In this document: positions 2,307-34,302 of the stretch, in pieces
Numbering within the stretch: the first letter of the stretch is position 1
Layout: every line of letters starts with the position of its first letter
Assembly (NCBI RefSeq): GCF_947503795.1
Contig: NZ_CANNEZ010000002.1
Coordinates: 310,001-374,000, forward strand
DNA: 64,000 bases
Origin: an uncultured Jannaschia sp.
GTDB lineage: Bacteria > Pseudomonadota > Alphaproteobacteria > Rhodobacterales > Rhodobacteraceae
Direction: 5' to 3'
Notes under the pieces: model-generated
Seen by the model: the letters and a program-made list of their open reading frames with translations, nothing else
Told to the model about the DNA's origin: nothing
Databases searched by the model: none
Program-made: the position numbers and the translations under genes

Positions 2307-2310
2307 GTGC

Positions 2311-10011: not shown

Positions 10012-10085
10012 GCCGCCGGAACGGGCCATCCGCGCACAGCGCCTGCGCGCTTGAATCCGGCGCGCGCGGGGCTGACATAGCGACC

Positions 10086-10637: not shown

Positions 10638-10678
10638 CCCCGCCCCGATCCGCAGGCCAAGATCGCCTGGGTCGACGC

Positions 10679-17704: not shown

Positions 17705-19150
17705 TCAGATTCCGTCGACGCAGACGTATTTCGTCTCCAGATAATCCTCTAGACCCTGACTGCCGCCTTCCTTGCCGAGCCCGCTTTCCTTTACGCCGCC
17801 GAATGGCGCTTCGACGGTGGTGATAAGGCCCGAATTGATGCCGATCATCCCGTATTGCAGCCCTTCGTTGAGCCGGAACGCACGGCCCAGATCGGCGGTA
17901 TAGGCATAGCAGGCGAGGCCGTAGACCGTGTCGTTGGCCATCTCGATCGCCTCCTCCTCGGTCTCGAAGCGGAAGATCGGGGCCAGCGGGCCGAAGATCT
18001 CCTCGGTGGCGAAGCGCATCGCTTGCGTCGCGCCGGTCATCACCGTCGGCTCGAAGAAGGTGCCGCCGTTGCCGTGCCGTCCGCCGCCGATCACGACCTC
18101 GGCCCCCTTCGACGTGGCGTCCTCGACGAAGGCCTCGACCTTCTCGACCGCGTCCATGTCGATCATCGGCCCCTGCTCGACGCCCGTCTCCAGACCGTCG
18201 CCCACCTTCATCGCGCGGGTCTTCTCGACCAGCCGTTCGACGAAGGCGTCGTGAATGCCCGATTGGACGTAGATTCGGTTCGCGCAGACACAGGTCTGGC
18301 CCGCATTGCGGAACTTCGAGACCATCGCGCCCTCGACGGCCGCGTCCAGATGGGCGTCGTCGAAGACGAGGAACGGCGCGTTGCCGCCCAGCTCCATCGA
18401 GACCTTCTTCACGGTATCCGCCGACTGCCGGATCAGTTCCTTGCCGACCTCGGTCGACCCGGTGAACGTCACCTTGCGCACCCGCGGGTCGTCCATGATG
18501 GCACCCGCGATCTCGCGCGCCGACCCGGTCACGATGTTCATCACGCCCGCCGGATACCCGACCTCCTCGGCCAACGCGCCCCAAGCGAGGCCGCTATAGG
18601 GCGTCGCCGTCGCGGGTTTGGCGACGACCGTGCAGCCGACGGCCAGCGCGGGCGCGACCTTTCGGGCCAGCATCGAGCTGGGGAAGTTCCAAGGCGTGAT
18701 CATGCCCACCACGCCGATCGCGTGCTTGGTCACGAGGATGCGGCGACCATTCACGCCCGCGGGCACGATCTCGCCCTTGGCGCGGCGCGCTTCTTCGGCG
18801 AACCAGCGGACATACTGTGCGCCGATGGCGATCTCGCCCATCGACTCGGCAAGGGGCTTGCCCATCTCGACGGTCAAGAGCTCGGCCAGGTCTTTCTGGT
18901 GGTCCATCAGCGCATCATGCAGCTTCCAGAGCAAGTTGCAGCGCTCCATCAGAGACATGTCGCGGAAGGCCGGGAAGGCCGCCGCTGCCGCGTCGATGGC
19001 GCGCGAGGTCTCGGCGCGACCGCCCTTCGGAACCGTCCCGATCACCGACCCATCCACCGGGTTCGTCACGTCGATGGTCTCGCCCCCGTCCGCGCCGACC
19101 CAGTCGCCGCCGATCAGGTTCGCCTGCTTCATCCAGTCCTGGAACGCCAT
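17705..19150 (-). CDS. NAD(P)-dependent semialdehyde dehydrogenase (GabD-like)
   Basis: Aldehyde dehydrogenase of 481 residues. FTGSTEVGKELI (cofactor), MELGGNAPFLVF (general base Glu) and GQTCVCANR (catalytic Cys) are intact, and the best overall likeness is to succinate semialdehyde dehydrogenases. The ATG at 19150 is preceded by GAGGAGGTGAGG. It is the last of seven minus-strand genes that begin with the kinase at 25428 and sits 5 bases after galM, so a sugar-derived aldehyde, for example sulfolactaldehyde or lactaldehyde, is as likely a substrate as succinate semialdehyde. GabD-like enzymes are known to oxidise sulfolactaldehyde in some sulfoglycolytic pathways. Confidence 0.9.
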   Translation of the reverse strand: MAFQDWMKQANLIGGDWVGADGGETIDVTNPVDGSVIGTVPKGGRAETSRAIDAAAAAFPAFRDMSLMERCNLLWKLHDALMDHQKDLAELLTVEMGKPLAESMGEIAIGAQYVRWFAEEARRAKGEIVPAGVNGRRILVTKHAIGVVGMITPWNFPSSMLARKVAPALAVGCTVVAKPATATPYSGLAWGALAEEVGYPAGVMNIVTGSAREIAGAIMDDPRVRKVTFTGSTEVGKELIRQSADTVKKVSMELGGNAPFLVFDDAHLDAAVEGAMVSKFRNAGQTCVCANRIYVQSGIHDAFVERLVEKTRAMKVGDGLETGVEQGPMIDMDAVEKVEAFVEDATSKGAEVVIGGGRHGNGGTFFEPTVMTGATQAMRFATEEIFGPLAPIFRFETEEEAIEMANDTVYGLACYAYTADLGRAFRLNEGLQYGMIGINSGLITTVEAPFGGVKESGLGKEGGSQGLEDYLETKYVCVDGI

Positions 19151-19155
19151 CGTCC

Positions 19156-20106
19156 TCACCTCCTCGAAAATCGAAATTCCGTTATCTGCTCATAGGTCTC
19201 GCCGGGGCGCAGAACCGCGCTCGGGAAGCCCGCCTGGTTGGGCGCGTCGGGCCAGACCTGCGGCTCCAGCGCGACACCGGCATGGGCGCGATAAACGCGC
19301 CCCTCCAGCCCCGGCACCTGCGTGTTCAGCTTGGCGCCGTCATAGACCTGCAACCCCGGCTCGGTCGTGGCCACCGCCATCTCCAGCCCGCCCGTGCGCA
19401 GCCACGCCACCTCGCGCAACGCCACGCGTTCGTCCGAGAGACAGAGGTTGTGGTCGAGCAGGCCCTCGGCGGGCAGCGCGCGGCCCCGGCGGAAGTCGAA
19501 GGCGGTGCCGTCCACCGGCGCGATGCCGGTCGGGATCAGGTCGTCATCCACCGGCACGTAACGATCGGCGGCGACGGTCAGGACGTGGTCCGCGACCGTC
19601 GCCGCCCCGTCGAGGTTCCAATAGGTGTGATGCGCCAGGTTGCAGAGCGTCGGTGCGTCGCAGGTCGCGCGGTATTCCACCCGCAGAGCGGCGTCAGGCG
19701 CGCAGACGTAGCGCGCCTCGATCCGCATCGCGCCGGGAAACCCCATCTCGCCGTCGGCGAGGTCGATGGCGAAGGTGATCGCGTCATCGCCGTGTTGGGC
19801 CACGTCCCAGATCCGCTTTCCGATCCCGGCCGATCCGCCGTGCAGCGTATGGCGCTCCTTGAAGTTGGGATCGGTCCGGTGCGTCGCGCCGTCGAGCTCG
19901 AACCGCGCGCCCCCGATCCGGTTCGCCACCCGCCCGGCCGTCGCACCCATGTAGTTCGAGAACTCCGGGTAATGGTCCAGATCGGCCAGCCCCAGCACCA
20001 GCGGATGGTCGATCCCGTCGAGCCGGAGATCGTGCAGGACGGCACCCAGATCGGTGAATGTCGCGGTCAGGCCGTGGCCGCGGATCGTGTAGGCGGGGCG
20101 GCTCAT
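19156..20106 (-). CDS. galM: Aldose 1-epimerase (galactose mutarotase family)
   Basis: Interconverts alpha and beta anomers of a hexose. 316 residues; HTLHGG, NLAHHTYWNL (catalytic His) and the late Glu in GVALEPQVWPD match the family. E. coli YihR, in the sulfoquinovose operon, is also of this family. The start overlaps the stop of the upstream SerA-like gene (ATGA). Which sugar it serves depends on the operon; the galactose genes lie 20 kb away. Confidence 0.9.
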   Translation of the reverse strand: MSRPAYTIRGHGLTATFTDLGAVLHDLRLDGIDHPLVLGLADLDHYPEFSNYMGATAGRVANRIGGARFELDGATHRTDPNFKERHTLHGGSAGIGKRIWDVAQHGDDAITFAIDLADGEMGFPGAMRIEARYVCAPDAALRVEYRATCDAPTLCNLAHHTYWNLDGAATVADHVLTVAADRYVPVDDDLIPTGIAPVDGTAFDFRRGRALPAEGLLDHNLCLSDERVALREVAWLRTGGLEMAVATTEPGLQVYDGAKLNTQVPGLEGRVYRAHAGVALEPQVWPDAPNQAGFPSAVLRPGETYEQITEFRFSRR

Positions 20107-21005
20107 GCGAGGCCCAGTTCCGCGGCGACGGTGCGCGCCGTCATCTCCGAGACGCGGGTGTTCGCCTCGGCGGTCACGCCGCCGATATGGGGCGTCAGGA
20201 TCAGGTTCGGCACGCCCGCGAAGTCGTTCTCCGCACCCAGCGGTTCCGTCGCGAAGGTATCGAGCGCCGCTCCCGCGAGATGCCCGGAGCGGAGCGCGTC
20301 GCAGACCGCCGCCTCGTCGACGATGCCTCCCCGCGCTGCATTAACCAGCACCGCACCCGGCTTCATCGCCGCCAGCGCGGCGGCGTCGATCATCTCGCGC
20401 GTCTCCTCGGTCAGCGGCACGTGCAGCGAGACGACGTCGGCCGCCGCCAGAACCTCCGCGACGCTCGCCTTCCGCGCGCCGTCGAAATCCGTCGCGTATG
20501 GGTCGGCGGCCACGACCTCCATCCCGAGCGCCCGGCCGAGCTCGCCCGTCTTCCGCGCGATCTCGCCGTAGCCGAGCAGCCCCAGCACCTTGCCCGCGAT
20601 CTCGCGCCCCCGCCCCGCGACCCCGCGCGGCCAGTCGCCGGCCTCCATCGCCGGGCGCATCATGTAGGCGCCGCGCAACAGGACCGCCGCCGTCGTCACG
20701 ACGTATTCCGCGACCGAAAGCGTGTTGGCCCCCGTTGCCGGGTGAACCGAGATCCCCCGCAGGCGGCAGCCGTCGAGATCGATATTGTCGAGGCCGACAC
20801 CAAGCCGCCCGACACAAGTGAACCCGGCATCCAGAAGCCCCCCCCGCACCTGCGTCCGGTTGCGCACGATCAGGCCCTGCGCCTCGGCCGCCAACCGCGC
20901 CAGATCGTCCGGCCGGTCGGACAGATCCGGCTCGTAGGTCACCTCGGCGCGCGCCCGCAGCCAGTCGACCCAGGCCTCGTCCATGAATTCGGTGATCAGG
21001 ATCAT
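20103..21005 (-). CDS. SerA-like D-isomer-specific 2-hydroxyacid dehydrogenase
   Basis: 300 residues, much shorter than biosynthetic SerA because the ACT domain is missing. NAD motif LGYGEIARKTGE (third Gly position present as GYGEI), Arg in NAARGGIVDE, Glu in FATEPLG and His in LTPHIGG complete the active site. In this operon it may oxidise a 2-hydroxyacid made from the sugar; sulfolactate dehydrogenase SlcC belongs to the same family. Located after a 124-base gap holding the dispersed repeat and directly before galM. Confidence 0.88.
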   Translation of the reverse strand: MILITEFMDEAWVDWLRARAEVTYEPDLSDRPDDLARLAAEAQGLIVRNRTQVRGGLLDAGFTCVGRLGVGLDNIDLDGCRLRGISVHPATGANTLSVAEYVVTTAAVLLRGAYMMRPAMEAGDWPRGVAGRGREIAGKVLGLLGYGEIARKTGELGRALGMEVVAADPYATDFDGARKASVAEVLAAADVVSLHVPLTEETREMIDAAALAAMKPGAVLVNAARGGIVDEAAVCDALRSGHLAGAALDTFATEPLGAENDFAGVPNLILTPHIGGVTAEANTRVSEMTARTVAAELGLA

Positions 21006-21030
21006 CGGCCGGTCGCCCCTTCACATGCCA

Positions 21031-21114
21031 TCAAGGTTAACACGCGCCCGCCCGGTCCTCTGGCCTGAAATACCTCGGGGGGCCGCCGAAGGCGGCGGGG
21101 GCAGCGCCCCCTCC
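21031..21114 (+). repeat. Dispersed intergenic repeat, copy 1
   Basis: About 84 bases that recur at 43684-43766 in the same orientation. Shared core: AAGGTTAAC, then CCTCTGGCC(T/G)GAAATACC and a run of G, then two hairpins (GCCGCC-gaa-GGCGGC and GGGGGC-agc-GCCCCC) and CTCC. It fills the only sizeable gap in the operon 17705-25428. Blocks of this kind are frequent between genes of Rhodobacteraceae; the GC hairpins may act on mRNA ends. Confidence 0.7.
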
Positions 21115-21129
21115 CCGCGCGAGGTCCGC

Positions 21130-22224
21130 TCACGGGCCCCGCCCCAGAAGCGAGATCGCCTCGCCCGAACGCGCGGATTCCTCGGCCGCCTCGCCCACCA
21201 GCACGGACCAGTAGCCGTCCTCCAGCGTCACCTCGGGCACGTTCCCGCCCCGGCGCACCAGCTCCAGGAACCGCTGGTGCTGGTAGAAGGTCGAGCCGTG
21301 ATGATCGCCCGCGATCAGAAGCTCGGGCGGCGTGTGGATGACCTCGCGCACCTCTTCCTTCAGGGCGCGGACGCTGGTGACGAATTCCGCCTCGCGCGGC
21401 GCGCCGTCGGGCGCGAAGCGTGCGGGTCCGGGGATCAGCGCGTCGCAGCGGGCCTTCGGGCCGGTGACCGCGACGAATTCCTGCCAATGCGAGCCTTCCG
21501 CGAACATGCACAGATCCAGCATCCCGCGCGTCCCGTTGGCGAAATCGACGATGACATAGGCGTTGTCCACGATATCCGGCACACCTCCCGCATAGCGCTC
21601 GTCGCGATGGTTCACGTCGACGCCGCCGCTGGCATAGACGCGCACCGGGTCGGATTTCACGATCAACCGCATCAGGTCCCAGAAATGGCAGCATTTCTCG
21701 ACCAGCGTGCCGCCGGTCCGCGCGTTGAAGCGGTTCCAGTCGTCGACCTTTGGAAGGAACGGGAAGCGATGCTCGCGGATCGAGACCATGCGCGGGTCGC
21801 CCACCGCGCCCTGTTCGATCGCCTGCAACAGCCTCTGGATCGGCGGCATGTAGCGGTATTCCATCGCCACCCAGATCGGCGCGCGGCGGCCCTTGGCCAT
21901 GTTGAGAAGGTCGCGACAGGCGGCCGTCGTGGTCGCGAGCGGCTTCTCGACGAGGATCGGCTTGTCCGTCGCCATCAACCGCTGCAGCAGCCCGGCATGG
22001 AGGTCGTTGGGCGCGGCCACCAGATAGACGTCGCACTCGCCTTCCGCGATCAGGTCGTCGGCCGTCAGGAAGCCCCTGGCGCTTTCGGCGGTGGCCATCG
22101 AGAGGCGGCGCATCGCCTCGTCGGGATCGGCCACGGCGGTCACGCGCGCATCGTCCAGAAGGTTGATGTTGCGGATATGCTCCTGCCCCATCATGCCCGC
22201 GCCGATCAGGCCGTATCGGATCAT
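21130..22224 (-). CDS. Gfo/Idh/MocA family protein (sugar dehydrogenase or NAD-dependent glycosidase)
   Basis: 364 residues. N-terminal Rossmann fold with GLIGAGMMGQEH, the EKP motif (ILVEKPLA) and the C-terminal alpha/beta domain containing REHRFPFLPKVDDWNRF and GGTLVEKCCHFWDLMR. Members oxidise inositol or sugars, but some use NAD+ transiently to hydrolyse glycosides, including sulfoquinovosidases (GH188) and GH109. Start overlaps the isomerase stop (ATGA). The operon has no classical glycosidase, which makes the glycosidase option attractive but unproven. Confidence 0.88.
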   Translation of the reverse strand: MIRYGLIGAGMMGQEHIRNINLLDDARVTAVADPDEAMRRLSMATAESARGFLTADDLIAEGECDVYLVAAPNDLHAGLLQRLMATDKPILVEKPLATTTAACRDLLNMAKGRRAPIWVAMEYRYMPPIQRLLQAIEQGAVGDPRMVSIREHRFPFLPKVDDWNRFNARTGGTLVEKCCHFWDLMRLIVKSDPVRVYASGGVDVNHRDERYAGGVPDIVDNAYVIVDFANGTRGMLDLCMFAEGSHWQEFVAVTGPKARCDALIPGPARFAPDGAPREAEFVTSVRALKEEVREVIHTPPELLIAGDHHGSTFYQHQRFLELVRRGGNVPEVTLEDGYWSVLVGEAAEESARSGEAISLLGRGP

Positions 22225-23558
22225 CGCGCGGCCTCCCGTGCCGCACCGAGCTCCAGGACCGGGACGCCCAGGCCCGCCGCGACCCCGGCCAGCGTGGCCG
22301 CATGGTCGCCGTAGGCCAGCGCCATGTGGTGCTCCAGACCGCTGGCCATCACGTCGCGGCAGACCGCGTCCGCGCCGCGGTCGAAGCGCACCGTTCCGCT
22401 TGTGCCCGTGAAGGCCATCGGCGCGTCCGTCACCTCGCCCGTGGCGATCACGACCTGCGGGCGGCCATGGGCCTGGCTCAGCCGGAAGAGCGTCACGCGC
22501 CCCGGCTTCAACGCGAATTCCATCAGGAGCGCCTGCTTGCGGTTGGTATGGACCGTGGCACCCCGCGCGCCCGCCGCCATCGATGCGGGCGCCTGCCCGC
22601 AATGCCAGACGACGCCGGTCTCGCCGTCCATGTCCACCAGATCGGCAAGGAAGACCGGGGCGTCGGCCACGTCCTGCAGGATGGCCTGGGTCACCGCGCC
22701 GTAGACATCCGCCTCGCAGGCGCAGGGGGTGCGCGCCTCGCCCAGCATGGCCACGGGCCCGCAGACCGCGCCGCCGTATTCGGTGAAGGTCTCAGGCCAG
22801 CAGCGGATCGCCATGGCGTCGAACCGATGCTCGGCCCGCAGGTCGTCGAGCGCGCCCGCCAGCCGCAGCGACCGGTCGAGCTCGCCCGCGTCCAGTTCCG
22901 CCACGCCGTCCAGCGCCTCGGCCTGCGCGACATGTTCGGGCCGGGCGGGCGTGGCGCGCGCGCGATCGAAGAGGTCCGGGAGGGTCAGTTCCGTCACCTC
23001 CGCGCCCGTCAGGCCCCGAAGAGCGGCGGCATCGTAGGCGCAGGTGTCGAACCCCTCGGGCCGCTCGCCGATGCGCGCGATCCGCAGGTCGCGCCGGATG
23101 GCGCGCGGGGCCGCATCCGTCGCCATGCCAAGGACCGGCGCCACCTCGGGCCCGGTCAGCAGCGCGTCGAGATCGACCGTGTCGCCGTAAGCCCAGGCGA
23201 AGCGCCGGTCGTTGAGACCGAGCGCATGGCTCAGGAGGTTGAGGCCGCAGAACGCGTTCAGCCGCAGCCGCCCGCCGACCCGCGGCTCGGGCACGGCCCA
23301 GATCGCGACCCGCCCGTCGAACCCCGTCGCGGCCCGCGTGGCGAAGGCCGCATCGGTGAAGGTGACCTGCAGGATCAGGAGCACGTCCGCCCCGGCCACG
23401 GCGTCGAGCGCACCTTCGTCCGGCCCCATCAGGAGCGCGCGCGACCCGACCACCTCGTGCCCGCTCGCGTCGAGCGCGGCCAGCATCGCGGCCAGCTTCT
23501 CCTCGGCGAAGGCGACGTCGAAGGTCGGTCGCGCCAGAGGAAGGATGCCGATCTTCAC
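22221..23558 (-). CDS. L-fucose/L-arabinose isomerase-like protein
   Basis: 445 residues, GTG start that overlaps the upstream aldolase stop (GTGA). The C-terminal half shows the pattern of fucose-isomerase-like proteins: RCWPETFTEYGGAVCGPVA, CEADVYGAVTQAIL, DLVDMDGE and HCGQAP, with Glu, Asp and His that normally bind Mn2+. It should convert an aldose to a ketose, giving the substrate for the neighbouring kinase. The specific sugar cannot be read from sequence. Confidence 0.82.
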   Translation of the reverse strand: MKIGILPLARPTFDVAFAEEKLAAMLAALDASGHEVVGSRALLMGPDEGALDAVAGADVLLILQVTFTDAAFATRAATGFDGRVAIWAVPEPRVGGRLRLNAFCGLNLLSHALGLNDRRFAWAYGDTVDLDALLTGPEVAPVLGMATDAAPRAIRRDLRIARIGERPEGFDTCAYDAAALRGLTGAEVTELTLPDLFDRARATPARPEHVAQAEALDGVAELDAGELDRSLRLAGALDDLRAEHRFDAMAIRCWPETFTEYGGAVCGPVAMLGEARTPCACEADVYGAVTQAILQDVADAPVFLADLVDMDGETGVVWHCGQAPASMAAGARGATVHTNRKQALLMEFALKPGRVTLFRLSQAHGRPQVVIATGEVTDAPMAFTGTSGTVRFDRGADAVCRDVMASGLEHHMALAYGDHAATLAGVAAGLGVPVLELGAAREAAR

Positions 23559-24589
23559 GAGATGTCTCCGTAGCTCCGGCGGAAGGTCTCGGTCGGGTCG
23601 CAGAACGCGAGGCCCTGGCCGCCATAGACGTCGTGGCGATGCCAGGGCGTCGCCTTCTCGTCGGTCAGAAGGTTCAGCTCGTCCATGTAGGGCACCGAGT
23701 CGCGCACCAGCCCCTCGCCCATCGCCTCCCAGTCGGGATAGGATCTGAACGCGTCGAGCCAGATCGCCCGTCCCGCGAGATAGCCCGAGGCGCCGGCCGC
23801 GTAGGCATAGTCGAGCACCGTCTTGAAGTCCGGCTTGTCGGCCCCCGCCGACAGCATCACCCAAGGGCGCCCCGCCGCGCGCCCAAGCTCGCTGAAGAGC
23901 GCCTGCACCGCGTCGTCGCCCGGCGTGATCCCCTTGGCGGGGACCGGGCTTTCCAGCTTGAAGACATCGACGCCGTAATCAGGGCCGGCGAAGGCCTCGA
24001 CCGATTTCAGGACGTGATCGGAATGCTTCGTCGCCATCTCGGTGTAGTCGGAGGTCTGCTCGGCATCGCTCTCGATCGGGTGGACCAGCAGCTCGAAGAG
24101 GAACGGGATATCGAACCGCGCGCAGGCCTGACCGATGCGCTTGACGAAATCATGCTGCGCCTGCGCGATCTCCTCGGAGATGTCGGGCCGATACCACGCC
24201 AGCACCTTCACCGCGTCGCCGCCCATCCGCTTGATCTTGCCCACCGACCAATCGTCGATCTCGGCGGACCGGCGGCCCTGGCCGGTCTCGACAAAGAGGC
24301 TGTCCTCCAGCGTCACGATCAGGCCCTTCCTGGGGTCGAACACCTCCCAGCCATGCGGGATCGCGAAATGCGGGTCGAGCAGCATCGCCGTCGACGAGGG
24401 CTGCAGCGCCTCCAGCAGCATCGTCTTGACGCGCGCCACGTCCTCCCACGGCGCCTCGCCGCCATGATGCTCCGCGATCGGACCCTTGATCGGCGGGCGC
24501 TGGTCGACGGCGGTCATCTTGAAGAGACCGGCCGCGTCGGACATGCGGCGGAAGCCCAGCTGTTTGCCGGGGGTGAGCGTGATGGTCAT
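23555..24589 (-). CDS. Class I sugar-phosphate aldolase (LacD/YihT-like)
   Basis: 344 residues of the LacD/tagatose-bisphosphate aldolase family, cleaving a ketose phosphate into dihydroxyacetone phosphate and an aldehyde. FKMTAVDQRPP opens the barrel, VKVLAWYRPD follows, the Schiff-base lysine is probably Lys211 in VFKLESP, and PWVMLSAGAD plus GYLAGRAIW close it. These segments also line up with E. coli YihT (sulfofructose-phosphate aldolase) by eye. Start overlaps the kinase stop (ATGA). An alternative is the aldolase-like DUF2090 part found in IolC proteins. Confidence 0.85.
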   Translation of the reverse strand: MTITLTPGKQLGFRRMSDAAGLFKMTAVDQRPPIKGPIAEHHGGEAPWEDVARVKTMLLEALQPSSTAMLLDPHFAIPHGWEVFDPRKGLIVTLEDSLFVETGQGRRSAEIDDWSVGKIKRMGGDAVKVLAWYRPDISEEIAQAQHDFVKRIGQACARFDIPFLFELLVHPIESDAEQTSDYTEMATKHSDHVLKSVEAFAGPDYGVDVFKLESPVPAKGITPGDDAVQALFSELGRAAGRPWVMLSAGADKPDFKTVLDYAYAAGASGYLAGRAIWLDAFRSYPDWEAMGEGLVRDSVPYMDELNLLTDEKATPWHRHDVYGGQGLAFCDPTETFRRSYGDIS

Positions 24590-25428
24590 GAACCCTCCAG
24601 GTCGCGCGCCACGGGATAGACCTCCCACCCCCCGGCGCGCGTGCATTTGATCGCCGCCGCACGGTTGGCGAAATCCGACGCGGCGTCCAGTGCTTCCCCG
24701 CGTCCGAGCGCCAACGTAAACGCCCCGTGCCATAGATCGCCCGCCCCGAGCGTGTCGACCGGATCGACCTCGGGCGCCGGCACATGGAGTCCGTCGGCCC
24801 AGCGCACGCCGTCCGGCCCGTCGGTATAGGCCACCGCGCCCGGAAGCCGCGACGCCGCATCCGCCAGCGCCCGGTCGAGCGCGTCGATCCCGGTGAAGTC
24901 CCGCAGGCCTGGCGCGCTGAAGACGACATGCGACGCCTGCGCGGCCAGCGTGGCGGGTGTGTATTTCTCGCCATCAAGCACGCCCGGTCGGCCCGCCGCC
25001 CGCGCCGCGCCAAGCGCCGCCTCGGCTGCCTCGGGCCAACGGCAATCGGCCAGCACCGCGTCGAAATTCGGCAAGGGCGGCGGCACGGTCGGCAGGTCCG
25101 CACCGGGGAAGTTGACGATCATCCGTTCGCCCGATGCGTCCACCATCACCGACGACAGCGGTGTCCGCCCGCCGCGCACCAGCATCGGCGTCACGCCTTG
25201 CCCGTCGAGAAGCGCCGCGAGCTCGTCGCCCGCGCCGTCGCGACCCGCGCGCGACAAGAGCGTCACGCGCGCGCCCAGCCGCGCAGCACCCACCGCCGCG
25301 TTCGCAGCACAGCCGCCGCCGATCCGCTCGAAGCTGTGGGATCGGTGCTTGCCCTCGCCCTCGGGCAGCACGTCCATCCGGTGGACGTAATCCATCACGG
25401 CGATGCCGCAGACGAGAAGCCGGGTCAT
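24586..25428 (-). CDS. PfkB family sugar kinase (YihV-like)
   Basis: 280-residue ribokinase-fold kinase; first gene of the seven-gene operon. The catalytic motif is DTLGAGDLWHGAF (base Asp231) and the N-terminal Gly pair is IGGGCAANAA. Over its whole length it resembles E. coli YihV: CGIAVMDYV at the start, GERMIVNFPG, VLADCRW and IKCTRAGGWEVYP at the end. As far as I recall, YihV uses a Gly, an Asn and an Arg to hold the sulfonate; the aligned Gly26, Asn106 and Arg130 are all present. Ketose-phosphate substrate is likely, sulfofructose is a hypothesis. Confidence 0.88.
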   Translation of the reverse strand: MTRLLVCGIAVMDYVHRMDVLPEGEGKHRSHSFERIGGGCAANAAVGAARLGARVTLLSRAGRDGAGDELAALLDGQGVTPMLVRGGRTPLSSVMVDASGERMIVNFPGADLPTVPPPLPNFDAVLADCRWPEAAEAALGAARAAGRPGVLDGEKYTPATLAAQASHVVFSAPGLRDFTGIDALDRALADAASRLPGAVAYTDGPDGVRWADGLHVPAPEVDPVDTLGAGDLWHGAFTLALGRGEALDAASDFANRAAAIKCTRAGGWEVYPVARDLEGS

Positions 25429-25501: not shown

Positions 25502-26794
25502 TCAATCGACCGGCAATCCGCTGGGCACGGCGTCGGGTCGACCGAGCCGCCCGTGCCGACTTGCCCCGCCCTCCAGCGCGCCAAGGAACGCGACCAGGTC
25601 GGCGATGTCGCCGTCGCTGAGTTCGACCGGCACGATATCGACCCGCGCCGCCACCCGCGCCATCTCGCGGCGGTCGTCCCGTATCGCGAAATCGACCGCG
25701 GCCAGCCACGGGGCGTCGGGCAGCTTGGCGAGGTCGGGCGTCCAGGCGGTCAGCGCGCCGAGCGGATCGGCGTGGTGCCGGATGATCCCCTCGAGCGTCG
25801 GATAGGCCCCGTTGTGGCCGTAGGGCGCGGTCAGCGTCACGTTGCGCAAAGACGGCGTACGGAAGCGGTAGGCATCCTCGAGGTCGTCGGTCTCGGCCAT
25901 CCGTCCGGTGTCGCGCGGCAGGGGATCGAAGCGCCGGGTGCGACCGGGGCCGAAGGGCGGCAGCGCCAGCGCATGAAAGTCGTGATCGGTAAAGAGCGGT
26001 CCCGAATGGCACGACGCGCAATTGGCCGCCCCGAAGAACAGCGCACGGCCCCGCTCCTGCGCCGGGGCAAGCGGGGTGCCGTCGAGATACGCGTCCCACT
26101 GCGCATCGAGCGAGCGCCATTCCGAGCCCATGAAATCCGCCAGCGCGATGGCGATATGCGTGATCGTCACATCCTCGGCGGCGGTCACGTCGTCGAAGGC
26201 GGCCACGAAGGCGTCGCCATAGGCCGGAATGCCCCGCACCCGCTTCGCCAGGATCGGCCAGCCGAGGTCGATGCGGTCGCCGACGGCGCCCGTCACCTCG
26301 TTCTCGCCCACGTTGCCCGCCATCTCGAACTGCGCCGTCATCGGGAACAGCGCCTGCACCGCCAAGAGCGTCGGCAAGCCGTCGGGCAGCCATTCCTCGG
26401 CGGGTGTGTCGTAGCCGTTGCCATAGGCCTCCGAGAGCGAGACCCGCCCGTCATGGAAGAACCGCTCGAACTCGGTCGCGCCGACGTTCCAGAGTGCGGG
26501 CGCATGGCGCGGCACGCGCTTGCGGATGGCCGCCGCCCCCGCCCCGGCGGTGCGCTTCGGCCCCAGCCCCTCGCCGCCCTCGCCGATGCCCAGCGACAGC
26601 CCGTCGCCCGAGAACGTCTCGTGGTGGTGGCAGGTCCCGCAGGAGATGTTGCGGTTGCCCGACAGGATGGGGTCGTAGAACAGGAGCCGCCCGATCTCGG
26701 CCCGCGCAGGATCGAAGGGATGGAAGGTCACCTCTTCCGCCAGGGCGGGCGCCGCCGCTAGGGTCAGCGCGAGGAGAAGACGATGAACTGCCAT
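25502..26794 (-). CDS. Dihaem cytochrome c peroxidase / MauG family protein
   Basis: 430 residues, exported (signal peptide up to about residue 19, ALAEE). Two c-haem sites: Cys52-GT-Cys55-His56 and CASCHSG near residue 258, with the family's PALWNVG and FRTPSLRNVTLTAPYGHNG segments. Members reduce peroxide or make modified side chains using cytochrome c as electron source. It stands alone upstream of the kinase operon, and its start overlaps the divergent Sel1 gene by 12 bases. Confidence 0.9.
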   Translation of the reverse strand: MAVHRLLLALTLAAAPALAEEVTFHPFDPARAEIGRLLFYDPILSGNRNISCGTCHHHETFSGDGLSLGIGEGGEGLGPKRTAGAGAAAIRKRVPRHAPALWNVGATEFERFFHDGRVSLSEAYGNGYDTPAEEWLPDGLPTLLAVQALFPMTAQFEMAGNVGENEVTGAVGDRIDLGWPILAKRVRGIPAYGDAFVAAFDDVTAAEDVTITHIAIALADFMGSEWRSLDAQWDAYLDGTPLAPAQERGRALFFGAANCASCHSGPLFTDHDFHALALPPFGPGRTRRFDPLPRDTGRMAETDDLEDAYRFRTPSLRNVTLTAPYGHNGAYPTLEGIIRHHADPLGALTAWTPDLAKLPDAPWLAAVDFAIRDDRREMARVAARVDIVPVELSDGDIADLVAFLGALEGGASRHGRLGRPDAVPSGLPVD

Positions 26795-27262
26795 GCCGCG
26801 ATCTTGGCCACCCTGCTGGTGGTGTCCAGCCCCGCCCGCGCCGATATCGAGGAGGCGCGCGACCTGATGGAAGCCGGCCGCTTCGCCGAGGCCCGCGCCG
26901 CGCTCTGGCCCGCTGCGCGGTCCGGCAACGCCGATGCCGAGGAGCTGATCGGCGTCATGTACGCGCTGGGCCTCGGGGTCGAGCGCGACCCGGTCCGCGC
27001 CTTCGACTGGTATCTCCGCTCGGCGATGAAGGGCCATCCCGGCGCGCAATCGGGCGTCGGCTGGTATTACGAGGTCGGCCTGGGCATGCCCGCGCCGGAC
27101 CTCGTCCGCGCCTATCTGTGGTACGTGCTTTCGGCCATCGGCGGAGATCCCGATGCCGCCATCAGCCAGGAGGAGGTCGTCAAGAAGATGACCCCCGAGC
27201 AGATCGCCCACGCCCTCGTGCTGGTCGAGGACTACAAGGTCTGGATGTATCCGTTCCGCTGA
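26783..27262 (+). CDS. Exported Sel1-repeat protein
   Basis: 159 residues with a signal peptide (cut near ARADI, about residue 21) followed by two Sel1-like (TPR-related) repeats: AEELIGVMYALGLGVERDPV and AQSGVGWYYEVGLGMPAPDL. Such proteins mediate protein contacts in the periplasm. The ATG has a strong SD (GAGGAGAA) but lies inside the first codons of the divergent dihaem gene, so one of the two starts may be different or the two genes share a bidirectional promoter inside coding sequence. Confidence 0.85.
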   Translation: MNCHAAILATLLVVSSPARADIEEARDLMEAGRFAEARAALWPAARSGNADAEELIGVMYALGLGVERDPVRAFDWYLRSAMKGHPGAQSGVGWYYEVGLGMPAPDLVRAYLWYVLSAIGGDPDAAISQEEVVKKMTPEQIAHALVLVEDYKVWMYPFR

Positions 27263-27305: not shown

Positions 27306-28118
27306 TCAGTCGAACATGTCCGGGGCGTCCTGCGCCAGCTGGTTCCAGATGGTCTGGAAATGCAGCCAGCCGATATAGTCCGAGCCGACATGCTCGCGCG
27401 AATAGCGGGCCCGGTCCTCGGGGATGCGGATCGGGTCGATGCCGGTCGCCGCCAGCGCGAGCTGCTGCTGGCAGCACCGCTCGAGCGCGATGAACCAGAA
27501 GGCCGCCGAATCGATCGAATGACGCGACGCCGTCAGCAGCCCGTGGTTCTGGTGCAGCGCCGCCTTCACACCCTTGAACGCCACCGCCACGTCCGAACCC
27601 GCATGGTTCTCGACGGCGACCGCGCCCGCCTGGTCGCCGATTACGACATGGTCCTCGAAGAACGCACAGGCATCCTGCGTCACCGGGTCGATCGGGCGTC
27701 CCGTCGCGCACCACGCGGTGCCGTAGGTCGTGTGCGCGTGGCACATCGCGATGATGTCGGGATGCGCCTCGTGGACATTGGCATGGAGCACGAAGCCCGC
27801 GCGGTTTACCGCATGGGTGCCCTCGATGACGGTGCCCTCGTGATCGACGAGGATCAGGTTCGACATCTTCACCTTGTCGAAATGGATGCACATCGGGTTC
27901 GTCCAGTAGAGCTCCGGACGCTCGGGGTCGCGGATGGTCAGGTGACCCGCGAAGCCGTAATCGAACCCCTCGGCCGCGAAGGCGCGGCAGGCGGCGACCA
28001 GACGCTCCTTGCGATGTCGCCGTTCCTCGTCGACGCTGTCGAAATGGGGCTCGTAGGGAAATTCGAGGCCGGTCTGTTCCGGCTGGTAGATCGAGACGCG
28101 GTTGCCGAGATCGAGCAT
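27306..28118 (-). CDS. Class II aldolase/adducin family protein
   Basis: 270 residues of the zinc-dependent class II aldolase fold. Metal ligands appear in HANVHEAHPD (Glu), CHAHTTYGTAW (two His) and LHQNHGLLT (His). Larger members close to this one are annotated as putative aldolases of unknown substrate in alphaproteobacteria. The ATG at 28118 has a GGAGG SD; the open sequence upstream is non-coding. Divergent from a LysR gene, which probably controls it. Confidence 0.88.
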   Translation of the reverse strand: MLDLGNRVSIYQPEQTGLEFPYEPHFDSVDEERRHRKERLVAACRAFAAEGFDYGFAGHLTIRDPERPELYWTNPMCIHFDKVKMSNLILVDHEGTVIEGTHAVNRAGFVLHANVHEAHPDIIAMCHAHTTYGTAWCATGRPIDPVTQDACAFFEDHVVIGDQAGAVAVENHAGSDVAVAFKGVKAALHQNHGLLTASRHSIDSAAFWFIALERCCQQQLALAATGIDPIRIPEDRARYSREHVGSDYIGWLHFQTIWNQLAQDAPDMFD

Positions 28119-28234
28119 CGTGGGTCCTCCGGGCGCGCGGGCGCCGCATGGGGTGACGGAATGGGTGGCCGGACGATGCCGCGCGGTGCCGCGTCGCGCA
28201 ACGCCGCCGCCGTGATGACAGTTATGGTGCACGC

Positions 28235-29140
28235 GTGAAGGACGACCGCCTCCTCCAGATGCGGATCTTCGTGGCCGTGATCGAGGCGGGGGGCTTCACC
28301 GCCGCCGCGCATCGGCTGGGCACCGGGCAGCCTTTCGTGTCGCAATCCGTGCGGCGCCTGGAGGATCGGCTCGGGACGAAGCTCCTGCACCGGACCACGC
28401 GCGGGATCCGCCCCACGGACGAGGGCCTGCGCTATGCCGAAGGCGCGCGCACGGCCCTCGACGCCGTCGAGCGGGCGGAGGGCGAGACCCGCGACGGCGC
28501 GGCCCGCATCGCGGGAACCCTGCGCGTCTCGGCACCGCTGGCGTTCGGGCTCGACCGGATCGCGCCGCTCCTGCCCGGCTTTCTCGACAGCCATCCCGCG
28601 CTCGACCTGTCGCTGGTGCTGACCGATGACAGCGTCGACCTCGTGGCCGACGGGATCGACGTGGCCATCCGCATGGGTCGTCTGCCCGATAGCGGCCTGA
28701 CGGTACGCCGCCTCTGCGATCTGCGCCGCGTCGTGGTCGCCGCCCCCGCCTTCCTGGCCCGCCACCCCGCGCCCGAGACGCCGCGAGACCTCGACGCGCT
28801 GCCCGTCCTCGCCTGGGCGGGCGCGCGCGAGCATCTGAACGCCTGGCCCTTCACGATCGACGGCCAGCGCTGGACGTTCCAGGCGCGCGGGCGGTTCCGC
28901 TCGAACGAAGGGTTATCGCTGGTGCAGATGTGCGAGGCGGGGTTCGGCATCATGCGCTGCGCCGAGCATCTGGCGCGTCCCGCCATTCGCGAGGGTCGCC
29001 TCGTCCCCCTGCTCGAAGCGTATACCGAGGCCGATGATGGCGCGGTGCACGCGGTCTTCCTGCCCGACCGCACCCTGCCCGCCCGTGTGCGCGCCTTCGT
29101 CGATCACATCGCCGCGGCCCTGCGCGCGCCGGACTGGTAG
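28235..29140 (+). CDS. LysR family transcriptional regulator
   Basis: 301 residues. N-terminal winged helix (LLQMRIFVAVIEAGGFTAAA...VSQSVRRLEDRLGTKLLHRTTR) and a periplasmic-binding-protein-like effector domain (PLLPGFLDSHPALDLSLVL and beyond) of the CrgA/DsdC-like subgroup. The start is GTG. The 116-base gap to the divergent class II aldolase gene is the obvious operator region; I see no convincing T-N11-A box with strong arms. Confidence 0.92.
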   Translation: MKDDRLLQMRIFVAVIEAGGFTAAAHRLGTGQPFVSQSVRRLEDRLGTKLLHRTTRGIRPTDEGLRYAEGARTALDAVERAEGETRDGAARIAGTLRVSAPLAFGLDRIAPLLPGFLDSHPALDLSLVLTDDSVDLVADGIDVAIRMGRLPDSGLTVRRLCDLRRVVVAAPAFLARHPAPETPRDLDALPVLAWAGAREHLNAWPFTIDGQRWTFQARGRFRSNEGLSLVQMCEAGFGIMRCAEHLARPAIREGRLVPLLEAYTEADDGAVHAVFLPDRTLPARVRAFVDHIAAALRAPDW

Positions 29141-29209: not shown

Positions 29210-30280
29210 TCATTGCATGTCCATGTCGCGGCGGGCGCCGACACTTTCCTCGGCGGTGGCGATGGCCGCGCGGAAGTTAGCCAGCATCTCCTCGCCGCCA
29301 TCCACATTCGACGCGAACCAGTCATAGACCGGCGCCGCGGCGTCCTGGAACGCCTGCTTCTCGTCCGGCGTCAGCACGTAGAGATCGCCGCCCCCGGCCA
29401 CGAACTCCTCGTAGGCCTGGATCGACTTGCGCTTCGGCGAGGCGAAGGTCGCCTGCTGCAGTGCCGAGAACCCGTCGACGATGACGCGCTTCATGGCGTC
29501 GTCCATCTCCTGGAACTTGGCGTTGTTCATCACCCAGATGGCGGCCATGTAGGCGTGCCCGTCCAGCGTGACGTATTGCAGGCCGGCATCGGGGAACTTC
29601 ATGCCCATGATGTCGGTGATGCCGTTCTTCGAGCCTTCGACCACGCCCGTCTGGAACGAGGTGAAGAGCTCGGGCCACGGAATCGGTGTCGGCGAAGCAC
29701 CCAGCGCGCGCACCAGCTCCTGCGGGAGGTCGGCGACCACGGTGCGGATCTTCAGGCCTTCCATGTCGGCGGGCGCGGCCACGCGGCGCTGCGTGTTGGC
29801 GAAGTTGCGCCAGCCGCCGGTGTTGCCCACGGTCATGATGCGGATCGCGTCGCCGGAATCCTCCAGCGCCTTCGAGCGGAGCTGGCTGACGAGGTCGGTG
29901 TTCGTCAGCACCTCCTCGGCGATGCGGTCATCGGCCATGAGGTAGGGCAGGTCGAAGATCTGCACGTAGGGGAAGATGCCCGCGGCGCCTCCGCTCGTGG
30001 TCACGAAGATGTCGATCGACCCGTCGGCCACGCCTTGCAGGCACTCGGCCCCGTTCGAGCAGAGCTGCGTCCCGATGAAGAGCTCGACCGTGATCGCGCC
30101 GTTGGACGCGTTCTCGACGTAGTTCTTGAAGACCACGAGCCCGTCGTAATCCTCATCGTTCTCGTTCGAGTTCGCCGTGGCGCGGATGTTGATGGCGTGG
30201 CCGTCGGCCCAGGCCGCGACGCCCGGAAGCGTCACGAGCGCGGCCAGCGCACCGGCCTTCAGCATGGATGCGAATTTCAT
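29210..30280 (-). CDS. TRAP transporter substrate-binding protein (DctP family)
   Basis: 356 residues, exported (signal peptide cut after AWADG, near residue 25). The DctP fold features are IRIMTVGNTGGWRNFANTQR, MEGLKIRTV with the carboxylate-binding Arg, and ASPTPIPWPELFTSFQTGVV EG-type helix. The mature protein should bind an organic acid in the periplasm. SD GGAGGACAG is clear. It is the last gene of the block dctQ, dctM, dehydrogenase, cytochrome, dctP and follows a 184-base gap, so it may have its own promoter. Confidence 0.93.
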   Translation of the reverse strand: MKFASMLKAGALAALVTLPGVAAWADGHAINIRATANSNENDEDYDGLVVFKNYVENASNGAITVELFIGTQLCSNGAECLQGVADGSIDIFVTTSGGAAGIFPYVQIFDLPYLMADDRIAEEVLTNTDLVSQLRSKALEDSGDAIRIMTVGNTGGWRNFANTQRRVAAPADMEGLKIRTVVADLPQELVRALGASPTPIPWPELFTSFQTGVVEGSKNGITDIMGMKFPDAGLQYVTLDGHAYMAAIWVMNNAKFQEMDDAMKRVIVDGFSALQQATFASPKRKSIQAYEEFVAGGGDLYVLTPDEKQAFQDAAAPVYDWFASNVDGGEEMLANFRAAIATAEESVGARRDMDMQ

Positions 30281-32430: not shown

Positions 32431-33723
32431 TCAGAGGAAGCCGAAGAAGCGCGGCACCGCGAGCGAGATGGCAGGGATGTAGGTGATGAGGAAGATCACC
32501 AGCACCTCGACCGCGAGGAAGGGCAGGATCGCGCGCGCGATGGATTCCACCCGTTCGCCCGACACCGAGGACGCCACGAAGAGCACGAGCCCCATCGGCG
32601 GCGTCGCGAGGCCCACGGTGAGGTTCACCGACATGATGATCGCGAAATGCACCGGATCGACGCCCAGATCGGTGAAGATCGGCCCGAGGATCGGGCCGAG
32701 AATGATGATCGCGGGGCCCGCATCGAGGAACATCCCGATGATGAACAGCAGAAGGTTGATGAGCAGCAGCAGGATCAGGGGGTTCTGCGACAGCGACAGG
32801 ATGAAGTCGGCCAGCGCCTCGGGCGCGTGGCTCAACGCCACGACCGTCTTGAACGCCATCGCCGCGCCCACCAGCAGCAGCACGACCGACGAGATCAGCG
32901 CCGCCTTGCCGAGCACGTCCGGCAGGTCGCGCCACGTCATCTCGCGCAGGATGAAGAGCGACACGATCACCGCGTAGCCGACCGCGACGGCGCTGGCCTC
33001 GGTCGGTGTGAATGCCCCGCCGAGGATGCCGCCCAGGATGATGACGGGCGTCAGGAGCGGGAAGAAGGCCTTGAGCGATGCGCGCCCCTTCTCTGGCCAT
33101 GTGGCGCGACGCTTCAGGGCGGGCATCGCCGCCGGGTCGCGCCGCGCGATCAGGTTGGTGACGAGCATCAGCCCGATCCCCACCAGCGCGCCGGGCACGA
33201 TCCCGGCGAGGAACAGCGCGGCCACCGACTGCTCCATGACGTAGGCGTAGATGATCATGATCCCCGAGGGCGGGATGATCGGGCCGATCACCGACGAGGC
33301 GGCGGTGACTGCGGCAGCGAACTTGCGGGTGTAGCCTTCCTTCTCCATCGCCGGGATCAGCATCGAGCCCAGCGCCGAGGTGTCGGCGACCGCCGAGCCC
33401 GACAGTCCCGCGAAGAGCATGGACGACAGGATGTTCACCTGCGCGAGACCGGCGCGGAAATGGCCGACCAGCGCCTGCGCGAATTCGACCAGCCGCAGCG
33501 TGATGCCGCCGCGGTTCATCATCTCGCCGGCGAGCATGAAGAACGGGATCGCCATCAGCGGGAAGCTGTCCATCCCGTTATACGTGTTGCGGTAGAGCAG
33601 GACGAGATCCTTGGCGTCGCCGTTGAGCCAGAGCATCACGCCAGGCGCCGCCAAGAGCGCGAAGAACACCGGCAAGCCGACCATGAGGAGGAGCAGGAAG
33701 AGCGGCAGGAACCAGACGAGCAT
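32431..33723 (-). CDS. dctM: TRAP transporter large permease subunit
   Basis: 430 residues, about 12 membrane helices, with GLSGSAVADTSALGSMLIPAM and GVAT-type PPMGL motifs of DctM proteins. It forms the Na+-coupled organic acid channel with DctQ and DctP. Its start follows the dctQ stop with zero spacing (TAGATG). Between its stop and the next gene are 131 bases with only a weak dyad. Confidence 0.94.
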   Translation of the reverse strand: MLVWFLPLFLLLLMVGLPVFFALLAAPGVMLWLNGDAKDLVLLYRNTYNGMDSFPLMAIPFFMLAGEMMNRGGITLRLVEFAQALVGHFRAGLAQVNILSSMLFAGLSGSAVADTSALGSMLIPAMEKEGYTRKFAAAVTAASSVIGPIIPPSGIMIIYAYVMEQSVAALFLAGIVPGALVGIGLMLVTNLIARRDPAAMPALKRRATWPEKGRASLKAFFPLLTPVIILGGILGGAFTPTEASAVAVGYAVIVSLFILREMTWRDLPDVLGKAALISSVVLLLVGAAMAFKTVVALSHAPEALADFILSLSQNPLILLLLINLLLFIIGMFLDAGPAIIILGPILGPIFTDLGVDPVHFAIIMSVNLTVGLATPPMGLVLFVASSVSGERVESIARAILPFLAVEVLVIFLITYIPAISLAVPRFFGFL

Positions 33724-34302
33724 CTATTCCGCCCCCACCGTGTCGGTCTCGGGAATGACGGGCAGGCGATCCGCCGCCCCGCCCAGCGCCGCGATCTGTC
33801 GCAGGATCAGCTCGACCATGACCGAGACCATCATCACGAGGCCCACGACCAGCGACGCCATCATCCAACTGCGCGGCATCTTCTCCCAGCCCTCGCCGGT
33901 CGGGTAGTAGAGCGCAGACGTCTTGAAGCGCCCCGAGAAGCCCGTGACCTCGTCCCAGCCGATCTTGGCGGCCACGACCAGCACCAGAAGCGACAGGAGC
34001 GACAGCACCAGCATCAGAAGGCCGCCGACCACGCGCGGCAGCACGAGCTGGATCATGTCGATCGCCACGAACCCGCCCCGCCGCAGCGCCGTCGGTGCGA
34101 CGACCATCAGCCACAGCATGAGAAAGCGCGCGGCTTCTTCCGGCCAGGGAAGCGGGTTCGAGAGGATGTAGCGCCAGAAGACCTGGATCAGGATGAAGCC
34201 GACCATCAGCGCCATGCAGAGCACGCCGACCCAGCGGCCCACGGCCAGCGCGCCCGCGTTTATGGTGCCCAGCGCCCGTACGGCTGCGACGATCCCTCCC
34301 AT
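33724..34302 (-). CDS. dctQ: TRAP transporter small permease subunit
   Basis: 192 residues with four hydrophobic spans, typical DctQ length. NPLPWPEEAARFLMLW is the conserved segment. The ATG at 34302 has a GGAGGG SD; the frame upstream is open but unsupported. First gene of the five-gene block that ends with dctP, divergent from an outer-membrane protein gene. Confidence 0.9.
   Translation of the reverse strand: MGGIVAAVRALGTINAGALAVGRWVGVLCMALMVGFILIQVFWRYILSNPLPWPEEAARFLMLWLMVVAPTALRRGGFVAIDMIQLVLPRVVGGLLMLVLSLLSLLVLVVAAKIGWDEVTGFSGRFKTSALYYPTGEGWEKMPRSWMMASLVVGLVMMVSVMVELILRQIAALGGAADRLPVIPETDTVGAE

Follow-up and report, generated by a model that had tools for sequence, protein, structure and literature searches.

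The 64,000-nucleotide stretch of DNA analysed here (the window; positions 310001-374000 of contig C2 in the 3.46 Mb, four-contig genome of an uncultured Jannaschia sp.) carries on its minus strand a seven-gene operon, running from 25428 to 17705. Together with a transporter encoded upstream, this operon very likely lets the cell import and degrade sulfoquinovose (SQ), a sulfonated sugar that forms the head group of sulfolipid in plants and algae, or its glycerol glycoside, by a hybrid form of the sulfoglycolytic Embden-Meyerhof-Parnas (sulfo-EMP) route. SQ is by far the strongest candidate, and we are highly confident that it is what the core pathway degrades. The original prediction, drawn from this DNA alone, had proposed that the operon could hold a complete sulfo-EMP-like pathway: candidates for the core enzymes are indeed there, but the route appears to be of a hybrid type, and its last steps are most likely encoded beyond the window, by SuyAB/ComC-like genes of contig C1. 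The proposed passage through sulfolactaldehyde, sulfolactate and sulfopyruvate gains strong, if sequence-based, support from homology, conserved residues, gene neighbourhood and co-occurrence across genomes. The coordinates of the open reading frames (ORFs) likewise bear out the seven genes, their order, strand and span, and the Pfam families agree with those first assigned. Five of the six gene junctions are 4-base overlaps and the sixth, from the Gfo/Idh/MocA gene to the SerA-like gene, is a 124-base gap; with the alternative start codon of the aldehyde dehydrogenase (ALDH) gene, its junction with the mutarotase gene becomes a 5-base gap, in line with the earlier description of five junctions that overlap or lie within 5 bases.

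In the route that we propose, a tripartite ATP-independent periplasmic (TRAP) transporter would import the sulfosugar, and a GH188 enzyme would cleave the SQ glycoside through transient oxidation at C3 with NAD, as reported in the literature for homologues whose residues the window protein shares. SQ would next be turned into sulfofructose by a mutarotase and an isomerase of SftI type, a YihV-type kinase would form sulfofructose 1-phosphate and a LacD-type aldolase would split it into dihydroxyacetone phosphate and (S)-sulfolactaldehyde, assignments suggested by family and context. A GabD-type dehydrogenase would yield (S)-sulfolactate and a SerA-type dehydrogenase sulfopyruvate. Going by gene content, a ComC-like enzyme would convert sulfopyruvate to (R)-sulfolactate in this genome, and SuyAB, encoded on contig C1, would release pyruvate and sulfite from it; among relatives, 18 of 80 loci have next to the operon either SuyAB or, in its place, ComDE, a sulfopyruvate decarboxylase.

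Core enzymes and their predicted substrate

The fourth gene (21130..22224) encodes the Gfo/Idh/MocA protein, which by sequence comparison is a GH188 NAD-dependent sulfoquinovosidase (SqgA-like; predicted activity). Against the PDB it matched 8zn9 (7e-117), 8qc3 (4.7e-106) and 8qc2 (6.5e-105), far ahead of the next structure (2.7e-23); 8QC2 is a GH188 sulfoquinovosidase structure cited in PMC11465081. The ArSqgA residue numbers given in a passage of PMC10755693 fit the 8qc3 chain with a single offset. Eight of the nine published ArSqgA positions were in register in an alignment on that chain, and the window protein has the same residue at each of these eight: the sulfonate contacts R153, L157 and K159 (ArSqgA R166, L170 and K172) and the catalytic residues K94, Y123, E176, H180 and H308 (K107, Y136, E189, H193 and H321). 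For the ninth, E163, the reference chain is already shifted by one residue, and a conserved Glu lies at the adjacent position. The original prediction had remarked on the lack of a GH31 sulfoquinovosidase; there is none among the seven genes, but the entry enzyme is not missing, because the Gfo/Idh/MocA protein is predicted to fill this role as a GH188 sulfoquinovosidase.

The first gene (24586..25428) encodes a PfkB kinase, a predicted sulfofructose 1-kinase. Its best PDB match was 7ag6 'Sulfofructose kinase' (5.7e-51), followed by an unnamed sugar kinase (1.2e-41), with the best ribokinase at 7.7e-20, and it is 40% identical to Escherichia coli YihV over 280 aligned positions. YihV K27, N109, R138 and D244, which we take to be the residues that bind or act on sulfofructose, correspond to K27, N106, R130 and D231 of the window kinase; K27, R138 and D244 are kept in all 75 kinase homologues (the window's included), and N109 in 61 of them. 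When YihV was used to search the whole genome, the window kinase came out on top at 172 bits, ahead of the next match at 81. Thus structure match, alignment and own-genome search agree on a YihV-type sulfofructose kinase, as in E. coli sulfo-EMP.

The original prediction had named E. coli yih genes as relatives of the kinase, aldolase and mutarotase and suggested alignments and trees with YihV and YihT. The kinase is nearest to YihV, but the aldolase lies outside the YihT clade and is not a YihT orthologue. The aldolase (23555..24589), a class I enzyme of the LacD/PRK12858 group and a predicted sulfofructose-1-phosphate aldolase, was split with 100/100 support from the YihT, Arthrobacter and Cereibacter aldolases in a 20-row tree (which leaves out Aureimonas and the L033 and L076 loci). 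This split rules out a YihT-type aldolase, and the Lac (tagatose-6-phosphate) pathway is ruled out as well, the lactose-pathway LacD rows grouping on a separate long branch in the broader LacD-like part of the tree and no LacAB-type family occurring among the seven genes. The equivalents of YihT Lys193, Ser226 and Arg253, presumably functional aldolase residues, are kept.

The third gene (22221..23558) encodes a fucose-isomerase-like protein, predicted to interconvert SQ and sulfofructose as a distant relative of SftI and SqvD. Searched against NCBIfam at 0.001, it had a single match, SftI NF048012 (240 bits, E 3.1e-71), and there was no match among PDB sequences at 0.01. Its predicted model (pLDDT, the predicted local distance difference test, 91.3, built from 27 sequences) resembled by fold L-arabinose isomerases best (E 8e-19) and also L-fucose isomerases (1fui, 1.3e-12; TM-scores normalised to the query, 0.50-0.58), and would accordingly be of the same general fold. 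The nearest named relatives, 72-84% identical, are from Jannaschia species. A YihS-type isomerase is ruled out by this Fucose_iso_C/SftI-like family membership, and YihS was not the best match of any ORF in the 80 loci. The sixth gene (19156..20106; PF01263, 2.4e-69) encodes an aldose 1-epimerase, the predicted SQ mutarotase.

Several of these results weigh against the SQ assignment. The aldolase's best PDB match, 8tnf 'DUF2090 domain-containing protein' (6.9e-92), carries no stated function, and it is followed by tagatose-bisphosphate aldolases (2.6e-38) before YihT-type enzymes (3e-20). The isomerase's 240 bits are far under the SftI family cut-off of 700. The kinase tree was poorly resolved, with the LacC rows on their own long branch, and is not used as evidence.

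The grouping of the genes was followed in the best 80 of 202 isomerase relatives from one scan of genome contigs, mostly from Rhodobacterales, plus Hyphomicrobiales and two gammaproteobacterial metagenome-assembled genomes (MAGs). Gene content was taken from the best blastp match at ≥40% coverage, and the counts are lower bounds because 18 of the 80 loci are shorter than 19 kb (62 are not). The kinase was found in 74 loci, GH188 in 72, the aldolase in 69, the SerA-like gene in 53, the mutarotase in 50 and the ALDH in 48, and for the genes upstream of the operon the counts were 68 for the TRAP solute-binding protein DctP, 65 for the large permease DctM, 63 for a Sel1-repeat protein, 62 for a di-haem protein and 60 for the small permease DctQ. 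Kinase, aldolase, isomerase and GH188 occurred together in 63 loci, DctP, di-haem and Sel1 genes in 61, and both sets in 53. Name-blind clustering of 1389 called genes, for which the gene caller was tuned on genes already matched per locus and in which Sel1 is undercounted, gave 12 families present in at least 47 loci, the next most frequent being in 17. Since the families recur across 80 related loci, the seven-gene grouping is beyond chance.

Could the operon instead serve an ordinary, non-sulfonated ketose such as tagatose, fructose or fuculose? PfkB, LacD, fucose isomerase and mutarotase are generic families, and the aldolase scores 317.9 bits against the NCBIfam PRK12858 'tagatose 1,6-diphosphate aldolase' subfamily, above its cut-off of 184. 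Nevertheless, we consider this scarcely credible given the intact sulfonate site of the GH188 protein, the invariance of YihV K27 and R138 across the kinases and the sulfolactate and sulfopyruvate enzymes that neighbour the operon in relatives. The same chemistry might also act on another sulfosugar, for example sulfofucose via sulfotagatose, with SQ as a side substrate. LacD enzymes handle tagatose and the aldolase is LacD-like, and the cluster of a sulfofucose-degrading Paracoccus includes a PfkB/LacD-family pair, although the pair was not induced according to the part of PMC12421959 that deals with it. The Paracoccus route used Entner-Doudoroff-type enzymes, however, whose families are absent from the seven-gene operon, and a GH188 homologue was active on SQ glycosides but inactive on glucosides and a glucuronide, as a section of PMC10755693 reports. 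With the Glu that contacts O4 of SQ kept in the window's GH188 protein, and the TRAP module found at SQ monooxygenase-like clusters too, we regard a sulfofucose pathway as very unlikely, and SQ remains the substrate that we favour.

The proposed route from sulfolactaldehyde to pyruvate and sulfite

The seventh gene (17705..19159, with its start at 19159 or 19150) encodes a GabD-like ALDH, the predicted sulfolactaldehyde dehydrogenase. It matched 8c54, which we take to be RlGabD, at 1.8e-160 (five further dehydrogenases of succinate semialdehyde or other aldehydes ranked higher), and its W157-N158, R166, R284, C290 and E256, placed by motif, are equivalent to RlGabD W162-N163, R171, R289, C295 and E261. 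Against a specific reading, the pocket residues of this ALDH and of the aldolase are presumably common to GabD and LacD enzymes at large and therefore do not discriminate. Likewise, the Arg pair proposed for sulfonate binding in a passage of PMC10599462 is present here, again placed by motif, but it is common to true succinate-semialdehyde dehydrogenases (GabD).

The fifth gene product (20103..21005; PF02826/PF00389), a SerA-like 2-hydroxyacid dehydrogenase, had phosphoglycerate dehydrogenases as its best PDB and NCBIfam matches, and is 57% identical to the product of a gene that lies between SuyAB and ComC in Hoeflea halophila. It is best read as an (S)-sulfolactate dehydrogenase with an SlcC-like role, because the gene adjoins SuyAB or ComDE in the 18 relatives mentioned above. 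All 18 of these loci, which hold SuyB or ComD/ComE, have the SerA-like gene; it occurs without them in 35 loci, neither is found in 27, and the lyase or decarboxylase is nowhere seen without it (0 of 80). Beside SerA, SuyAB and mostly ComC-like genes stand in 5 loci (Hoeflea, Oceanomicrobium and others; SuyA 5, SuyB 5, ComC 4), and ComDE in 13 (ComD 13, ComE 13), with both ComDE subunits of Shimia haliotis scoring above the TIGR03845 and TIGR03846 cut-offs.

In the Jannaschia genome itself, a SuyB-type match (C1:1366623-1366994) neighbours an Ldh_2/ComC-type match (C1:1364801-1365733), in a cluster of neighbouring genes of SuyA, SuyB and ComC kind with a GntR-type regulator. The SuyA-, SuyB- and ComC-like proteins are 83, 85 and 53% identical, respectively, to those that adjoin the operon in Oceanomicrobium, and a passage of PMC12421959 proposes that SlcC, ComC and SuyAB act together on (S)-sulfolactate. 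Two scores count against these end steps: in NCBIfam the SuyA and SuyB candidates hit nothing but galactarate dehydratase, with scores under its cut-off, and the ComC candidate reaches 178 bits where the L-sulfolactate dehydrogenase cut-off is 500. As the curated library names neither SuyA nor SuyB, those names rest on context, Pfam family and the same part of PMC12421959. A ComDE/Xsc route is ruled out for this genome, which gave no TIGR03845 match for ComDE, though Xsc is present. This sulfoacetaldehyde acetyltransferase (C1:1268692-1270425; 912 bits, cut-off 676) has, by eye, acetate kinase-like and aminotransferase-like genes as neighbours, and the locus would be a separate route for a C2 sulfonate, probably taurine.

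Gene co-occurrence was examined in 198 genomes of the same family, one per genus, at thresholds of 1e-60 for the isomerase, 1e-100 for SuyB and 1e-30 for ComE; genera are not independent, so that p-values serve as a guide only. The isomerase was found in 18 genomes, SuyB in 38 and ComE in 46. SuyB or ComE accompanied the isomerase in 17 of 18 genomes, compared with 65 of the 180 others (one-sided Fisher test, 1.3e-6); taken singly, SuyB was present in 10/18 versus 28/180 (p 3e-4) and ComE in 8/18 versus 38/180 (p 0.03). The exception, the Litoreibacter-type genome G171, had neither SuyB nor ComE at the thresholds used, and no SerA gene was seen at the locus of Litoreibacter roseus (L034).

These results bear on whether the pathway stops at sulfolactate or sulfopyruvate, the product being excreted while SuyAB and ComC on contig C1 serve imported free sulfolactate. 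Such an arrangement would fit the position of the SuyAB/ComC-like genes on another contig with a regulator of their own, the excretion of sulfolactate by Arthrobacter (described in parts of PMC8873060) and the Litoreibacter-type loci without SerA, and SuyB must have other uses, because it occurs in the 28 genomes without the isomerase. On the other hand, the operon holds a SerA gene, which would be useless to a sulfolactate excreter, SuyB or ComDE adjoins in 18 of the 53 SerA-bearing loci, and the co-occurrence across genomes is strong. We therefore think excretion unlikely here, and mineralisation through SerA, ComC and SuyAB probable.

The upstream TRAP, di-haem and Sel1 genes

The original prediction stated that there are no ABC or TRAP genes in the operon. 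This is correct within the seven genes, but a complete TRAP set with Pfam matches lies upstream on the same strand: DctP (29210..30265; PF03480), the predicted SQ or SQ-glycerol binding protein, the large permease DctM (32431..33723; PF06808, 1.5e-117) and the small permease DctQ (33724..34302; PF04290, 5.1e-21). DctP matched 4p47 in the PDB at 6.8e-32, then the isethionate-binding DctP 8t9t at 2.2e-29. The anion-binding Arg/Arg/Asn of IseP, described in a section of PMC11668362, corresponds by motif to R153, R174 and N214; the two arginines are present in all 86 copies and N214 in 85. According to the same source, TRAP proteins that bind carboxylates also keep these residues almost throughout.

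Between the operon and the TRAP genes, and divergent to the point of nearly touching (25502-27262), lie genes for a di-haem cytochrome c peroxidase/MauG-like protein (25502..26794, minus strand; PF03150; start uncertain) and a Sel1-repeat protein (26783..27262, plus strand; PF08238), both with signal peptides. The J. faecimaris orthologue of the di-haem protein had 6e1c 'Di-heme enzyme' as its nearest structure (7e-27) and TIGR03981 as its best NCBIfam match (257 bits, below the cut-off of 340). In the Sel1 protein, W76, W94, W113 and W154 are invariant in 84/84 aligned copies, all at least 50% identical.

The same upstream genes recur where the isomerase is absent. We examined 20 stretches around di-haem hits in isomerase-free genomes (the 19 strongest such genomes plus G013), so picked by their di-haem hits and compared with sulfo-SMO-like (SQ monooxygenase) references taken from one of them, L105. 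Di-haem and Sel1 genes were present in all 20, DctP in 18, aldo/keto-reductase and flavin-reductase genes in 18, a sulfo-SMO-like monooxygenase in 17 and GH188 in 13. The monooxygenase belongs to the alkanesulfonate monooxygenase family (253 bits, below the cut-off of 518) and was found in 0 of the 80 isomerase loci; none was found in the Jannaschia genome either, in a search without a positive control. In Ruegeria sp. TM1040, about 10 kb of the megaplasmid hold genes annotated as 'cytochrome c peroxidase', 'tetratricopeptide repeat protein', TRAP, flavin reductase, aldo/keto reductase and LLM oxidoreductase, together with a GH188-like gene. We assume that these module-bearing roseobacter clusters belong to sulfo-SMO; they share GH188, TRAP, the di-haem peroxidase and Sel1/tetratricopeptide repeat genes with the Jannaschia locus, but differ from it in that the C-S bond is cut first, by a flavin monooxygenase. 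A passage of PMC10755693 describes GH188 as near-universal in roseobacter sulfo-SMO clusters. The best argument that the transporter carries SQ or SQ-glycerol is thus that two unrelated SQ pathways share one TRAP system, and we consider such an importer likely.

A bolder idea is that the TRAP transporter, the MauG/MbnH-like di-haem protein and Sel1 make up a single portable module for SQ uptake that serves two chemically unrelated SQ pathways. In it, the di-haem protein would act on a periplasmic partner to mature or protect it, and oxidation of the invariant Sel1 tryptophans is a plausible way of doing so. MbnH oxidises a tryptophan of MbnP, and we know of no protein-oxidation step in any TRAP system; if the idea were true, SQ import in marine Rhodobacterales would depend on such a step. 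The di-haem gene lies within 12 kb of the isomerase in 12 of the 18 isomerase genomes, counted by hand among the matches listed. Three observations temper the link between the upstream genes and SQ clusters: among those same matches, no di-haem gene lies that close in the other six genomes (G014, G040, G057, G074, G126 and G143), which loosens the link; the di-haem family is widespread, occurring in 120 of the 198 family genomes at 1e-60 with the J. faecimaris query; and two of the 20 isomerase-free stretches show the di-haem/Sel1 pair only. We regard the bolder idea as a whole as a tentative and rather doubtful proposal.

Four further genes interrupt this region. A class II aldolase/adducin-type gene and a LysR regulator (27306-29140) lie between Sel1 and DctP and were matched in 0 and 1 of the 80 loci, and genes resembling cytochrome c and glucose/sorbosone dehydrogenase (30465-32299), which separate DctP from DctM/DctQ, were each found in 2 (L026 and L031). 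We take all four as insertions, since they are not conserved; the latter pair is possibly an add-on for periplasmic sugar oxidation.

Known systems and variant loci

Sulfo-EMP, sulfo-EMP2 and hybrids are described in portions of the reviews PMC12890257 and PMC9594981. Plain sulfo-EMP is defined by a YihT-type aldolase and a YihS-type isomerase, neither of which was found here, and plain sulfo-EMP2 by the PfkA-type kinase SqiK and the class II aldolase SqiA, in place of which the operon has PfkB (PF00294) and DeoC/LacD (PF01791) proteins. The operon is neither type, because its aldolase is not YihT-type and its isomerase not YihS. In parts of PMC9594981, the sulfo-EMP2 route of Bacillus urumqiensis has an SQ isomerase of the fucose-isomerase family (SqvD) and intermediates that are also predicted for the Jannaschia operon, but its kinase is of PfkA type and its aldolase of class II, where the operon has PfkB and class I enzymes. 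The Arthrobacter sulfo-EMP system, as covered in sections of PMC8873060 and PMC10755693, has in common GH188 (SqgA), a PfkB kinase, a class I aldolase and a GabD-type sulfolactaldehyde (SLA) dehydrogenase; unlike the Jannaschia operon, it has, in the same part of PMC8873060, a YihS-type isomerase, an ATP-binding cassette (ABC) importer and no mutarotase, and sulfolactate is excreted. Its aldolase is YihT-type, a plasmid example being 46% identical to YihT and 26% to the window aldolase.

Closer counterparts have appeared in print. A figure legend of PMC10755693 includes the cluster of J. faecimaris, the species of locus L030, as an SQ cluster, and a legend of PMC8873060 includes that of Pseudoruegeria haliotis PVTD01000003.1, the very contig of L075; both loci keep the kinase, aldolase, isomerase and GH188, as in the Jannaschia operon. 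These legends make no mention of a LacD-type aldolase, SerA, TRAP, di-haem or Sel1 genes for the two clusters. The 'Y160' cluster of Actinobacteria bacterium IMCC26103 (PMC11465081) has a near-identical gene list (GH188, SLA dehydrogenase, phosphoglycerate-dehydrogenase-like protein, sulfofructose phosphate (SFP) aldolase, sulfofructose (SF) kinase, fucose isomerase and SuyAB), whereas the Jannaschia locus has Leu (L157) rather than Tyr at the sulfonate position, TRAP rather than ABC, and its SuyAB-like genes elsewhere in the genome. Because the J. faecimaris and P. haliotis clusters already stand in legends, the core cluster cannot count as a discovery; what is new about the core is how its known parts are combined. 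A TRAP transporter may likewise have been assigned to roseobacter SQ clusters in earlier literature. In the relevant part of a taurine-respirer paper, a TRAP transporter is proposed to import sulfolactate; in the portion of a gut paper that touches on it, ComDE appears in a legend only. Sulfoglycolysis in pure cultures often ends in excreted C3 sulfonates, as a passage of PMC12890257 notes; the operon and its genome partners would predict one marine cell that takes SQ by sulfo-EMP chemistry all the way to pyruvate and sulfite, and point to an importer and haem-protein partner common to roseobacter SQ monooxygenase-like clusters.

A DeoR-family regulator whose best match in the reference set is E. 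coli CsqR occurs in 48 of the 80 loci, and the Jannaschia and Litoreibacter proteins of this kind are 66-82% alike. Its likeness to CsqR counsels caution: identity is 30-40% to what was the sole DeoR-type reference, one such protein is nearest to the DeoR/GlpR model in NCBIfam, and a search with the Shimia CsqR-like query found no CsqR orthologue in the window's own genome. The only hit of that search, the gene at C1:310061, was rejected as CsqR, being only 39-43% identical to the CsqR-like proteins of six relatives and 37% to E. coli CsqR; this low identity, and a GlpD-like gene adjoining it by eye, led us to read it as GlpR.

Several related loci depart from the Jannaschia arrangement. Seven loci from Silicimonas/Boseongicola MAGs (L047, L052, L057, L067, L074, L080 and L082) keep the YihV-like kinase, isomerase, ALDH and SerA, but counterparts of the aldolase, GH188 and the TRAP module were absent from the DNA examined, so the cleavage step would lie elsewhere or be non-homologous. 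L075, from Aliiruegeria (Pseudoruegeria) haliotis, suggests a variant that forms 2,3-dihydroxypropanesulfonate (DHPS): a YihU-like gene (60%) and a mutarotase gene stand next to its operon, and neither ALDH nor SerA was matched in the 21 kb of this locus. On the Zymomonas mobilis plasmid pZZM402 (L128, positions 1-11394), class II aldolase, mutarotase, major facilitator superfamily (MFS), TonB receptor and ALDH genes accompany fucose-isomerase-like (36%) and GH188-like (45%) genes; this small plasmid may thereby hold an SQ cluster in a model species for ethanol fermentation. Finally, a Cereibacter sphaeroides plasmid (L137) holds close together genes for an ABC transporter, an ALDH, a tartrate-dehydrogenase-like protein and a YihT-clade aldolase, with a PfkB kinase in the same cluster that is 42% identical to the window kinase, and is a candidate for another sulfosugar cluster.

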